Of a stretch of DNA of 64,000 nucleotides, positions 36,748 to 47,002 are shown in pieces. Source of the DNA: Enorma massiliensis phI. Its GTDB lineage: Bacteria > Actinomycetota > Coriobacteriia > Coriobacteriales > Coriobacteriaceae. Below the pieces are notes generated by a model. That model made no database searches, was not told the origin of the DNA, and saw only the letters and a program-made list of their open reading frames with translations. Within the stretch, counting starts at the first letter, position 1, and every line of letters begins with the position of its first letter. The position numbers were made by a program, and so were the translations under genes. The stretch spans positions 1 to 64,000 of the forward strand of contig NZ_HE978574.1 of the NCBI RefSeq assembly GCF_000311845.1, in the 5' to 3' direction.

Positions 36748-36891
36748 TTTCAACTTTTGGGCACTTCCCCGCGCGGCGGACGGGCACGGGCGGGCGAGGG
36801 GTGGGAAAAGGCGCAGCTCAGGCGGCTGGCACCCTCCCGGATGCGGCACGGCTACCCGGGCCCTCCTCCCCGAAGTGCCCAAAAGCTGAAA
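36748..36891. repeat. 144-bp element bounded by 20-bp inverted repeats
   Basis: TTTCAACTTTTGGGCACTTC (36748-36767) and GAAGTGCCCAAAAGCTGAAA (36872-36891) are inverted copies with one mismatch, enclosing 104 bp of very GC-rich DNA. The element fills most of the 333-bp gap between convergent genes. It is not a simple terminator, because the loop is too long and no T-tract follows. No transposase is present. Confidence 0.7.
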
Positions 36892-42318: not shown

Positions 42319-43518
42319 CTACAGGCCGTAGTCTTCAGCAAGACGCTTCCATGCGGGAAGCGAACGCTCGATAACCTCGGGTGCCACGCAATACCCTACG
42401 CGCACCCACCCCTCAACGCCGAAGCTGTTGGAGGGCACCGGCAAGAGCTCGTAGGCCCGAGCGCGTTCGCAGAACGCCTCGGCATCGGGCTCAAGGGCAC
42501 GGATCCACAGGTAGAAGGCACCGCCTGGCTCCACATAGGTATACCCCATCTGCGAGAGCGCCTGGGTGAGCAGGTCACGATTGCGAGCGTATGCCGCAAC
42601 ATCCGACGGAACGTCCACACAATCCATGACCACGCGCTGGAAGAGCGATGGCGCGCATACGAACCCGAGCGACCGGGCCGTTCCGGCAACGGCCGTCATG
42701 ACCCGGCGGGCGCCCTCGCTCACCTGCGGCACGAGCACCCAGCCCACGCGCTCTCCAGGAAGCGAGAGCGATTTGCTGTACGAATAGCACACCACCGTGT
42801 GCTCGTAGAGCGACGGCACCCAAGGAACCTCAGCGCCGTAGGTGATTTCGCGGTAGGGCTCGTCTGAGATGAGGACAATGGGCTGAGGATGGCCCAGGCG
42901 CGCCTCGCGATCCACGTTCGCGCGCTCGAGGACATCCACGAGTTTCTCCAGGTTCTCCCTGGTATAGACCGCGCCCGTTGGGTTATTGGGCGAGTCGATG
43001 ATAACCGCCGCGGTACGGTCGGTGATGGCGGCGGCGACCGCCTCGGGGTCGACCTGGAACGTTTCCTGATCGGCTAAGACCTCGATGCAGACGGCACCAG
43101 CCGTTTCGATCCACACGCGGTATTCCGGGAAATACGGCGCGATGACGATAACCTCATCGCCGGGGCACGTGACCGCTCCAAGCGTGCAGGACACCGAGGC
43201 GGCGGCGCCGACCGTCATGAACACATCGGCCATGGTGTAGTTCGTCCCAAAACGACGGTTGAGCGATTCCGCCACGGCAGCACGAACCTCGGGTGCGCCG
43301 GGCGCGGGCGTGTACCCGTGCACCTGCTCGGGTGGGAGCTTGAGCGAACGCTCGATGCTCTGCCTCACCTCGTCGGGGGCGGGCACGCTGGGGTTGCCCA
43401 GGCTGAAATCGAACACATTCTCATCGCCAATCTGTGCCTTGCGCTCGTTGGCGTACGTGAAAATCTCGCGAATCACCGAGCTCTCGGCACCGCGAGCATA
43501 CATCGTATCGTTGATCAT
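42319..43518 (-). CDS. PLP-dependent aminotransferase, class I/II
   Basis: The 399-residue fold-type I enzyme has SLGNPSVPAP near the start, the VGAAASVSC cofactor phosphate site, SPNNPTGAVYT, ISDEPYREITY and the PLP lysine in CYSYSKSLSLPGERVGW (Lys249). The sequence resembles aspartate/aromatic aminotransferases of the AspB type. The amino donor cannot be read from sequence. GAGGAGCAATC precedes the ATG at 43518. It is 124 nt upstream of the PHP gene on the same strand and may head that transcript. Confidence 0.93.
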   Translation of the reverse strand: MINDTMYARGAESSVIREIFTYANERKAQIGDENVFDFSLGNPSVPAPDEVRQSIERSLKLPPEQVHGYTPAPGAPEVRAAVAESLNRRFGTNYTMADVFMTVGAAASVSCTLGAVTCPGDEVIVIAPYFPEYRVWIETAGAVCIEVLADQETFQVDPEAVAAAITDRTAAVIIDSPNNPTGAVYTRENLEKLVDVLERANVDREARLGHPQPIVLISDEPYREITYGAEVPWVPSLYEHTVVCYSYSKSLSLPGERVGWVLVPQVSEGARRVMTAVAGTARSLGFVCAPSLFQRVVMDCVDVPSDVAAYARNRDLLTQALSQMGYTYVEPGGAFYLWIRALEPDAEAFCERARAYELLPVPSNSFGVEGWVRVGYCVAPEVIERSLPAWKRLAEDYGL

Positions 43519-43756
43519 GATTGCTCCTCATATCGGCGCAGCCGTGCCGCGCACCGTCTTGTGGTCCATGATACGGCAAGATGCACGGCCCTCGGAGCCA
43601 GAACGCTCCAGGGCGCGGTGCCGATCAATGCGAGCAGCCAGATGGCGCTGGCAGATGGTGCCAGTGGCTTCGTACAACAGGCATGGAGCGTTGCACACGG
43701 CAAAGACGCGCCGGGCTCAGGTGCTCCATGCAGACGCTCCATGCAATCGTTACGCA

Positions 43757-43847
43757 CATTCGCTCGGCGCAGCGCTCCGTGCAATCGCCCAGCGAAATCG
43801 TTCGCGCAAACGCTCAGCGCATTCGCTCGGCGCAGCGCTCCGTGCAA
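43757..43847. repeat. 63-bp-spaced direct repeat in a 700-bp non-coding gap
   Basis: An identical 28-bp string occurs at 43757-43784 and 43820-43847 (it contains CTCGGCGCAGCGCTCCGTGC), so the period is 63 bp. Degenerate relatives (GCTCCATGCAGACGCTCCATGCAA) lie just to the left. The leftward reading frame across it gives ERLHGALRRAN repeats but has no ribosome site, so I treat it as non-coding. Confidence 0.7.
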
Positions 43848-43930
43848 ACGCTCGGCATACACGCTCACCAACTCGATGGAATGGCCGCGCCGGCCCGCAC
43901 GGTGAAGGCGTTTTTGCAACGAATGTCGGT

Positions 43931-44121
43931 TTTCTGGCTAACTTTGTCGATTTCTGGCGATGGACTTCGACCATTCGGCGTCAAGAAGACCTCGCTAGCC
44001 ATGTCCGCGCTCCGTTACCCACCCTTTCGGCATGTTTTTATAGCTAAATGTAGGACCCAGTGCCCCTCCGCCAGAAAGCCCAGGCGTCTGAGCGCAATAA
44101 ATCGACAAAGTTAGCCAGAAA
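43931..44121. repeat. 191-bp element with perfect 23-bp terminal inverted repeats
   Basis: The 23 bases at 43931-43953 (TTTCTGGCTAACTTTGTCGA plus TTT) are repeated exactly as the reverse complement at 44099-44121. A nested pair, TTTCTGGCG (43951-43959) and CGCCAGAAA (44069-44077), lies inside. The 145-bp interior has no gene. Size, perfect ends and the absence of a transposase fit a MITE-like mobile remnant. A long-range RNA hairpin is the alternative. Confidence 0.7.
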
Positions 44122-44135
44122 TCAATCTCTCTACG

Positions 44136-44174
44136 AAAGACGCCCGCACTCGGAGTCGAGCGCGGGCGTCTTTT
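44136..44174. terminator. Bidirectional terminator downstream of ftsH
   Basis: AAAGACGCCCGC and GCGGGCGTCTTTT form a 9-bp GC stem with A-tract and T-tract on its two sides, so it works on either strand. It is 47 nt after the ftsH stop codon. Confidence 0.85.
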
Positions 44175-44220
44175 GCCGTTCAATCTACTGTCAAATCCGT
44201 CTTGGTCGGGCAGGAATCGC

Positions 44221-46443
44221 TTAGTCTTGATCCCCCTCCGAGTGGGAATCAGCAGCGACGGCCTCTGCGGCGAAGCGGGCGGCGTCTTCCGCAAGCTCCT
44301 CATCGCTCATGCGCGGCTTGCGGCGATCGCCGGGCTTGGAGCCATCCTTACCGCCAGCCTGCTCCTTGGCCAAGAATTCATCCCAAGTGTTATCAAGCAG
44401 CGCCTCGACGGCGTCGCCCTCGACGGTCTCGCGCTCCAGGAGCACGTTGGCCATGAGCTTGAGCTGGTCGGAGCGATCGCGCAGGATCTTCTCCGCACGC
44501 TCGTGCGCCTCACGCATGATGCGCTGCACCTCGGTATCGATACGGCGTGCGGTCTCCTCGGAGTAATCCTGATGATCGGCGTAATCGCGCCCCAAGAAGA
44601 CCTGGTGCTGGGCTTCGCCGAAGACCTGCGTTCCGAGCGCCTCGCTCATACCCAAGCGCGTGACCATCTCGCGTGCCATCTTGGTTGCGCGCTCGAGGTC
44701 GTTCGATGCACCGGAGGTGATGTCGTCGCACATGAGCTCTTCGGCCACGCGACCGCCCAGGAACACCGCGAGCTCGTCGAGCATCTCGTTCTTGGTCTTG
44801 AGGAAATGGTCCTCAGTGGGTAGCTGCATGGTGTAGCCAAGTGCCTGGCCACGCGGGATGATCGTAATCTTGTGGACCGGGTCGGAGTGCTCGAGCACGT
44901 GCCCCACGAGGGCATGGCCGCTCTCGTGGAACGCGATGGTCGTGCGCTCGGTCTCGGTCATGACCCGGGCCTTGCGCTCGGGACCAGCGATCACGCGCTC
45001 CATAGACTCCTCGACCTCGTCCATGCTGATGCGCCCGCGGTGGCGGCGGGCGGTAAGCAGCGCGGCCTCGTTCATGAGGTTCGCAAGGTCGGCGCCGGTG
45101 AATCCCACGGTGAGCTGGGCGAGTTTATCGAAGCGCACGTCGTCTGCAAGCGGCTTGTTGGCGGAGTGCACCCGAAGGATCTGCTCGCGGCCCTTCACAT
45201 CCGGGCGGTCCACGGTAATCTGCCGATCGAAGCGGCCAGGGCGCAGCAACGCCGGGTCGAGAATATCCGGGCGGTTGGTCGCAGCGATGAGGATCACGCT
45301 CTCGTTCTCCTCGAAGCCGTCCATCTCCACGAGCAGCTGGTTCAGCGTTTGCTCGCGCTCGTCATGCCCGCCGCCCAAGCCTGCTCCGCGCTGGCGTCCA
45401 ACGGCATCGATCTCGTCAATGAAGATGATGCTCGGAGCCTGTTCCTTCGCCTTGGAGAAGAGGTCGCGCACGCGGCTTGCGCCCACGCCAACGAACATCT
45501 CAACGAAATCGGAACCGCTGATGCTGAAGAACGGCACCCCGGCCTCGCCGGCGACGGCCTTGGCCAGCAACGTCTTGCCCGTACCCGGAGGGCCTACGAG
45601 CAGGACGCCGCGCGGGATCTTCGCGCCAAGCTTACGGTAGCGCTCGGGATCTGCCAGGAAGTCGCGGACCTCCTCGAGCTCCTCGACCGCCTCGTCGATA
45701 CCCGCCACATCGGCGAACTTGACCTTGGGGCGAGTAGCCTCGTTCATCTTGGCGTTCGTCTTGCCAAACTGCATGGTCTTGCTGTTGGCGCCCATCATCT
45801 GGCGCATGAAGTACAGCATGATGAGCACCAAGATCACCGTTGGGACCACGCTGATGAGAAAGTCCATGATCGCGTTGGGATCGTTGGTGTTGACGATGTA
45901 GACGGTGCTCGGGCGGCCGGCCATGAGGTCGGCAAGCGCATCGGAGCCCACGTAGGTAGAGGTAAAGTGCTTAAGCGCCGCGTTCTTGCCAATGTCCTCA
46001 GAACGCGTCCAGTACTCACCGGCCAGGCTGCCATCGGCCACGGTGTAGGTCACGTTGGCAACGCGCCCCTCTTCGACCGCGGTCACGAACTCGCTCGTAG
46101 CAAGCTCGTCGGCGGGGCTCTGCGCGCCAAAGCCACCGTTCATGCTGAAGATGACATAGGCGAGAAGACCGCACACAAGCAGGATATAGAGCCACGACAC
46201 GCGGGACGGACCGCGCCTACCGGGACCGCCGCCGGGACGGCCCGATCCGTCGCCCGACCCACCGGAACGCCCGAGCCCCAGCTGGAACGGATCGTCAAAC
46301 GACGAGCCGGGCGAATCCGGCGCTTCGGGGCGGGGCGCGTCATCCTGCTGATCGCGATTGCTTGAGCCACCGCCATCAGCAGCGAGAGCGAGCCCGCAGG
46401 CTCGCTCATCCTCAATCGTTGCGCTTAGAACACGACGGGTCAT
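44221..46443 (-). CDS. ftsH: ATP-dependent zinc metalloprotease FtsH
   Basis: The 740-residue protein has two membrane helices (about 83-102 and 196-213) around an extracytoplasmic domain, AAA+ core with Walker A GPPGTGKT (284-291), Walker [16 protein letters not shown], the [16 protein letters not shown], and the zinc site [10 protein letters not shown]. It degrades misfolded membrane proteins. ATG 46443 is chosen: it is 1 nt after the hpt stop, with GGAGG further upstream. The first 80 residues are an unusual Gly/Ser/Asp-rich cytosolic tail ([19 protein letters not shown]) not found in E. coli FtsH. The C-terminal tail is acidic. Confidence 0.97.
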
Positions 46444-46444
46444 A

Positions 46445-47002
46445 TTACGAATAAACCTCCGGCTTGAGAATCCCCACATAGGGGAGGTTGCGATAGCGCT
46501 CGGCAAAATCGAGGCCGTACCCCACCACGAACGCATCCGGGCAATGGGTGCCCACGTACTTGGGGTTGATTGCAGCCTGCTTGCCCTCCACGTCCTTCCA
46601 CAGGAAGGTTGCCACCTCGATGGACGCGGGGTTACGGCTGCTCAGGTTCTTCATGAGGTACTTGAGCGTGAGGCCGGAATCCAGGATGTCCTCCACGATG
46701 AGCACGTCACGCCCCTTGATATCCATGTCCAGGTCTTTAACGATGCGCACCACGCCCGAGCTCTTGGCTTTATCGCCATAGCTTGAGACGGCCATGAAGT
46801 CGATGGCGAGCGGCACGTCGATAGAGCGCATAAGGTCGCCCATGAAGACGACGGCGCCGCGCAGGACGGCGATAAGCACCAGGTCTTTACCCTGGTAGTC
46901 GCGAGAGATCTCTGCGCCCATGCGCTTGACCATAGCCGCGATATCCTCTTCCGTGAACAGCACCTGCTCGATATCCGGATGCATAGCGCCCTGCTCGATC
47001 AT
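46445..47002 (-). CDS. hpt: Hypoxanthine phosphoribosyltransferase
   Basis: The 185-residue purine-salvage enzyme has the PRPP loop [17 protein letters not shown], the [12 protein letters not shown] element, the SSYG flexible loop and [20 protein letters not shown] at the C-terminus. ATG 47002 is preceded by GGAGG at 7 nt; the frame extends to 47050 but without a ribosome site. tilS-hpt-ftsH is a widely conserved order in Gram-positive bacteria and the ftsH start lies 1 nt after its stop, so the genes are coupled. Confidence 0.96.

Follow-up and report, generated by a model that had tools for sequence, protein, structure and literature searches.

The analysed window, a stretch of 64,000 nucleotides, contains a gap of 702 bp between the start of a gene for a PLP-dependent aminotransferase (43518) and the 3' end of ftsH (44221), which was identified by the FtsH equivalog HMM (E 1.5e-254). 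This gap, put at about 700 bp by the initial annotation, holds an element that we call W, whose ends are inverted copies of each other and whose interior, as had been stated, includes no credible gene. A scan for sigma-70-type promoters over 43519-44230 returned no sigma-70-like site. Between W and the aminotransferase start lies a degenerate tandem array with periods of 13 and 25 bp (GCAATCGCTCGGC-like). Just outside W stands a hairpin of 17 bp that carries a short T run and is probably the ftsH terminator; hairpins resembling it precede three further copies of the element (c230, d232, and a327). The coordinates of all features are collected in Table 1.

The ends of W, described beforehand as perfect inverted repeats of 23 bp, are indeed exact reverse complements separated by 145 bp, and they extend to 29 nt (93%) if two mismatches are allowed. 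The nested 9-bp inverted pair was likewise found. That such an arrangement is unlikely by chance also stands, since the window contains the 19-nt core of the arms twice, whereas shuffled sequence has it 0.02 times on average, and no inverted pair of this kind appeared in 600 kb of Markov-shuffled DNA. The outermost four bases (TTTC/GAAA) are not common to all copies, and therefore the unit is better drawn without them. Both strands of W have a low folding energy (z = -6.2 and -5.9). Searches against Rfam with the element and with both families described below gave nothing above the curated thresholds, and the sub-threshold matches fall mostly on the hairpin beside the element. No DNA similar to W was found in phage and plasmid records.

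Table 1. Coordinates of W, its parts and surroundings, the further copies of its family, and other repeats
Feature	Record	Positions	Strand	Remarks
PLP-dependent aminotransferase gene	window	42319-43518	-	
Degenerate tandem array	window	43743-43856		
TTTC flank of W	window	43931-43934	+	pairs with GAAA at 44118-44121; junction dyad symmetry, not conserved throughout the copies
W left arm, 23 bp, TTTCTGGCTAACTTTGTCGATTT	window	43931-43953	+	type B core, CTTT replacing AAAT
W extended arms, 29 nt	window	43931-43959 / 44093-44121		
W miniature element, 183 bp	window and C1	43935-44117		bounded TGG...CCA, like the other eight copies; d232, f662, and g698 show the shared boundary
Nested 9-bp inverted pair	window	43951-43959 / 44069-44077		
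W inner arm extension CTGGCGATGG	window	43954-43963	+	also in the d232 and f662 left arms; only partly paired in W
W non-coding interior, 145 bp	window	43954-44098		part matches c230 on the opposite strand; rest unique in the genome
W right arm	window	44099-44121	-	perfect reverse complement of the left arm
17-bp hairpin with short T run	window	44136-44173		
ftsH	window	44221-46536	-	
c230	C1	230802-230995		
d232	C1	232268-232461		
e297	C1	297127-297310		
a327	C1	327008-327169		
f662	C1	662436-662631		
g698	C1	698112-698307		
j4754	C2	4754-4925		
b497	C2	496967-497128		
Exchanged block carrying a327	L275	8877-9800		compared with L279
Sister-family element	window	36748-36891		example
Sister-family element	L344	6990-7119		example
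Sister-family elements	L359-L375			examples
Single element with 30-bp arms	L276	4045-4224		
RAYT gene	L280	5980-7110		GAGACAGTTGTGCCGGGTTAAACTGTCTC repeats on either side
Further GAGACAGTTGTGCCGGGTTAAACTGTCTC repeats	L275; L278; L343	3958; 5174; 9858		

The genome from which the window comes (2.28 Mb in 3 contigs) was searched with the arm pattern TGGNTAANNNTGTCGATTT, and a census of inverted pairs combined 420 kb of own-genome stretches with pattern searches. The 18 exact matches of the pattern in this genome resolve into nine inverted pairs with outer lengths of 162-196 bp, and no unpaired arm is found among them; two additional matches, with two mismatches each, look like chance. The genome search for the end sequence that the initial annotation proposed thus shows W to be multicopy. 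The accompanying search for a full transposon with the same ends found none in this genome, where all 18 arms belong to short pairs and no longer element with W-family ends encloses a gene. On the ORF picture, all nine copies are intergenic (the overlapping ORFs look spurious), and several sit directly after gene-end hairpins. Their neighbours are mostly housekeeping genes, including ftsH by HMM and, as judged by eye, metG, rsmA, and a clp-like gene; a327 lies between genes that also by eye appear convergent. Integron attC sites were considered and rejected on inspection of the sequences, because type A arms have no AAC/GTT core and the spacers are too long. W is one copy of a low-copy, species-restricted and mobile-looking family, with inverted arms (a core of about 19 bp, up to 38 bp in all) and a variable non-coding spacer.

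Of the 398 genomes searched in the class, two have the exact arm pattern, the genome under study and a second one of the same genus (G003), so that 396 of the 397 other genomes had no match to the arm sequence. The match in G003 is the a327 copy. The block around it is about 98-99% identical between the two genomes and begins approximately 100 bp beside the element, whereas identity beyond the break is around 80-90%; this difference indicates that the presence of a327 in G003 reflects a recent exchange between the species. BLAST comparison of the same two genomes showed a further block of 96% identity along the DNA. We read the junctions at the W and e297 sites in G003 and in another related genome, G001, and located the flanks alone in two more, G002 and G004. 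In both G003 and G001, the gap between ftsH and the aminotransferase gene is much shorter and carries no element, and the same holds at the metG-rsmA site, which corresponds to e297. These findings do not describe the single copy at a conserved site that the initial annotation had named as speaking against its reading. Since the whole intergenic spacer differs between the species, however, the W and e297 loci of G003 and G001 do not offer a clean empty site. In G004, the intergenic region behind the clp-like gene (L316), where c230 lies in the present genome, holds an inverted pair with 38-bp arms (TGGCCATTTTTGACAGCTTGG...); this was tried as a family of its own and dropped when it proved a single pair. 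A scan of public collections with a degenerate arm pattern gave matches in at least 116 bacterial stretches and in 92 viral ones, each with a single, unpaired match; these appear to be chance hits, and the pattern was too loose for the scan to be informative.

Three of the copies, d232, f662, and g698, are homologous from end to end (f662 and g698 are 77% and 72% identical to d232), and the homology stops at the arms. As they occupy unrelated sites, the unit has moved. The absence from G003 and G001, the presence of nine copies and the shared interiors that end at the arms together support a small mobile element. The interiors of W and c230 match in part with one of them reversed (local score 41; the highest score in shuffles was 24), and no relationship was detectable among the remaining interiors of the nine copies, so common descent of the whole family is argued by the arms only. 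Across d232, f662, and g698, the arms show no differences in 54 positions, whereas the interiors differ at 25, 48, and 57 of 142; at the interior rates, unchanged arms would be expected with probabilities of 3e-5, 2e-10, and 9e-13. The arms of the W family are far more constrained than its interiors. They are of two types, AAAATG and ACTTTG, which are mixed at one locus only, b497. The changes occur together, with CTTT accompanied by AAAG in W and a327, and AAAT by ATTT in six others. The core triplet is identical within eight of the nine loci and differs between the arm types, the triplets of b497 being mismatched. Part of the inner arm extension of W, CTGGCGAT, also recurs in g698 and b497. 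The consensus structure of the family comprises the outer stem alone, with little covariation, and the two halves of the interior pair no better than swapped-half controls.

No target duplication had been seen at the borders of W, and none was found in our analysis. The nine copies as a set show no excess of target-site duplications over swapped flanks, and 19 copies of the sister family described below have fewer matches than with swapped flanks. The flanks are instead dyad-symmetric across the element (p about 0.01, nine copies). The bases at positions -5 to -1 pair across it in 27 of 45 cases, compared with 16.9 when the right flanks are swapped (p=0.004). The clearest dyad is that of e297, where removal of the element joins the flanks into AGCCGATCTGAATCGGCT, a sequence with a 7-bp stem and a loop of four bases. 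This palindrome suggests that the insertion target may be a small palindrome, or that the stem may have been lengthened after insertion.

The genome encodes three RAYT-type Y1 transposases. Their matches to NCBIfam REP_Tyr_transpos have E values from 3e-17 to 4e-20 and all fall a little short of the curated cut-off. Each of the three genes, as read by eye, adjoins a repeat of its own (GAGACAGTTGTGCCGGGTTAAACTGTCTC, TGCAAAACCAGGACAGAGGGATTTTTGCATGC, and GTCAAAATGGGACGGGGTTGTTTTGAC). One of these genes, in L280, has palindromic GAGACAGTTGTGCCGGGTTAAACTGTCTC repeats on either side, with more of them elsewhere (Table 1), and looks like a textbook REPIN system. Searches for W-like arms at the three RAYT loci gave scores no better than shuffles. 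A single W arm does not fold alone (DNA z = 0.0), while GAGACAGTTGTGCCGGGTTAAACTGTCTC, the palindromic REP repeat of the transposase designated RAYT1, does (z = -3.8). The W family is for these reasons not assigned to any resident RAYT, and neither the three RAYT loci nor the arm pairs searched for enclosed genes yielded an enzyme able to move it.

A second, larger repeat family, built like the W family, was recognised with the pattern TTYMACTTTTGGG, which has 62 arm matches in the genome against none in the control and forms about 20 pairs with near-constant spacing. Its arms read TTCAACTTTTGGGCAC / TTCGTTCCACTTTTGGGAA. Of the 19 pairs that we read in the sequence, most span 130-131 bp, and the spacers are strongly divergent. 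Once oriented alike, 17 of the pairs have AGTA and TACT boxes in common (clearest in a TTCAAC subfamily), which flank a central TACCTGCGGTTTT box in which CTG is nearly invariant, giving the layout arm-AGTA-CCTGCGG-TACT-arm; the interior dyads are a property of the consensus sequence, with no copy-by-copy covariation. A single element in L276 has 30-bp arms (TTTCTGGCAGTTATTTCAACTATGAACGAT, 97%) and a CCTGCG box at its midpoint. When the central box was sought in the W family, it was clear only in c230, again at the midpoint. As the box is clear in c230 and in the L276 element but not in W, a kinship of the two families is suggested and no more. A bolder and rather unlikely idea is that both belong, as separate branches, to a single class of symmetric DNA elements that has not been described before, with family-specific inverted arms, inner dyad boxes, an asymmetric midpoint CCTGCGG box, and a nearly fixed length. 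Such elements would be read by a putative protein of the host or of a mobile element, and selection would keep them while their spacers drift to saturation.

We read W as a REPIN- or MITE-like non-autonomous hairpin element, moved in trans by a putative, probably duplication-free enzyme, with arms that are still selected, and we give this reading a probability of about one half. A long hairpin in single-stranded DNA, formed by the paired arms, would probably be what the trans-acting enzyme recognises, and the unit would be inserted without target duplication at intergenic, often palindromic places, by a route similar to the one proposed for REPINs and their REP-associated tyrosine (HUH) transposases. 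The arms would remain under selection while the spacer drifts, either because copies with damaged arms are no longer copied or because a protein may still bind them. Counting for the reading are the nine pairs with no lone arm, the copying of d232, f662, and g698, the constraint on the arms and their joint changes, the dyad symmetry of the flanks in place of a duplication, the strong folding of either strand, the missing W and e297 in G003 and G001, the narrow distribution of the arms, the sister family of like build, and the precedent of REPINs (PMC3116915). Counting against the reading are the shuffle-level scores at the RAYT loci, the single arm that does not fold, the lack of a clean empty site at the W and e297 loci, the lack of detectable homology among most interiors, and the absence of interior self-complementarity above swapped controls. 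The MITE-like insertion advanced by the initial annotation survives in part. The multiple copies, the G003 and G001 gap without an element, and the three interiors shared up to the arms favour it, but there is neither a target duplication nor a full transposon, the arms are constrained, and the more specific notion of a DDE-transposon MITE does not follow. A classical MITE would have arisen by deletion within a DDE transposon; the arms would be its remaining terminal repeats, and the autonomous parent would since have been lost from the genome. This origin would account for the terminal inverted repeats, the non-coding interior, the many intergenic copies, and the end-to-end copying, yet it appears unlikely when neither the nine copies nor the 19 sister copies carry target duplications, no longer element has the same ends, and the arms do not decay along with the interiors, as those of a decaying MITE would.

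Conserved arms with diverged spacers, arms that covary, and intergenic positions, several of them right after gene-end hairpins, are also what would be seen if the copies were protein-binding or cruciform sites, selected in place for a role in the host (regulation, processing of 3' ends, or chromosome organisation) after a mobile past. The fixed layout of the sister family, whose dyads are consensus and not per-copy base pairing, points the same way. We nevertheless find this explanation decidedly unlikely, for the positions are not conserved in congeners and the arm sequences are limited to one species and one exchanged block. The arms of 19-23 bp and the spacing of 162-196 bp in the W family agree with known invertible promoters. 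These dimensions would fit invertons, that is, DNA switches inverted by a shared site-specific recombinase with the arms as recombination sites, as would the one inverted pair at each locus and the core triplets that agree within eight of the nine loci and differ between arm types. That alternative is nonetheless highly improbable given mainly housekeeping neighbours, no sigma-70-like site in the scan of the W region, the mismatched triplets of b497, the location of a327 between apparently convergent genes, and the copying of the whole unit seen in d232, f662, and g698. Slimmer still is the chance of a structured RNA at transcript 3' or 5' ends. Low folding energy on both strands and three arm positions that change as pairs are in its favour. 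On the other side stand the lack of Rfam matches above threshold, a consensus limited to the outer stem with little covariation, and the position of a327; moreover, an RNA stem would not need an identical arm sequence at nine unrelated genes.

Most small bacterial repeats are attributed either to DDE transposons, as their MITEs, or to RAYT transposases, as their REPINs. The W family resembles MITEs in being short, multicopy, and bounded by terminal inverted repeats, in having no coding capacity, and in the homologous interiors at unrelated sites (complete in d232, f662, and g698, partial in W and c230, and absent in the rest), but it has neither a target duplication nor an autonomous parent, and its arms are conserved far above the interior. 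The Correia or NEMIS elements of Neisseria are intergenic units of 100-160 bp near gene ends, with inverted ends of about 26 bp; their descriptions include a TA duplication and a well conserved interior, which set them apart from the W family. With invertons the W family shares the single inverted pair per locus and similar arm and spacer lengths, but whole-unit copies exist and the sigma-70-type scan of the W region revealed no promoter association. REPINs are REP doublets that form a hairpin and are mobilised in trans by RAYT tyrosine transposases; their inverted ends are conserved, more so than the spacer, which has a set length (PMC3116915). Similarly, the W family has inverted conserved ends, a less conserved spacer, intergenic positions, a pair that behaves as a unit, a predicted long hairpin, no observed target duplication, and RAYT genes in the same genome. 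In contrast to REPINs, its arms contain no palindromic REP core at each end and flank no RAYT, and there are nine copies alone with no singlets. The family thus combines the anatomy and the evolutionary pattern of REPINs, without their palindromic ends or enzyme, with the lack of the target duplication expected of a MITE. If the moving enzyme is found, it may represent a further route by which bacteria spread hairpin-forming DNA, and if no such enzyme exists, the conserved arms would point to a host role for repeats of this type.
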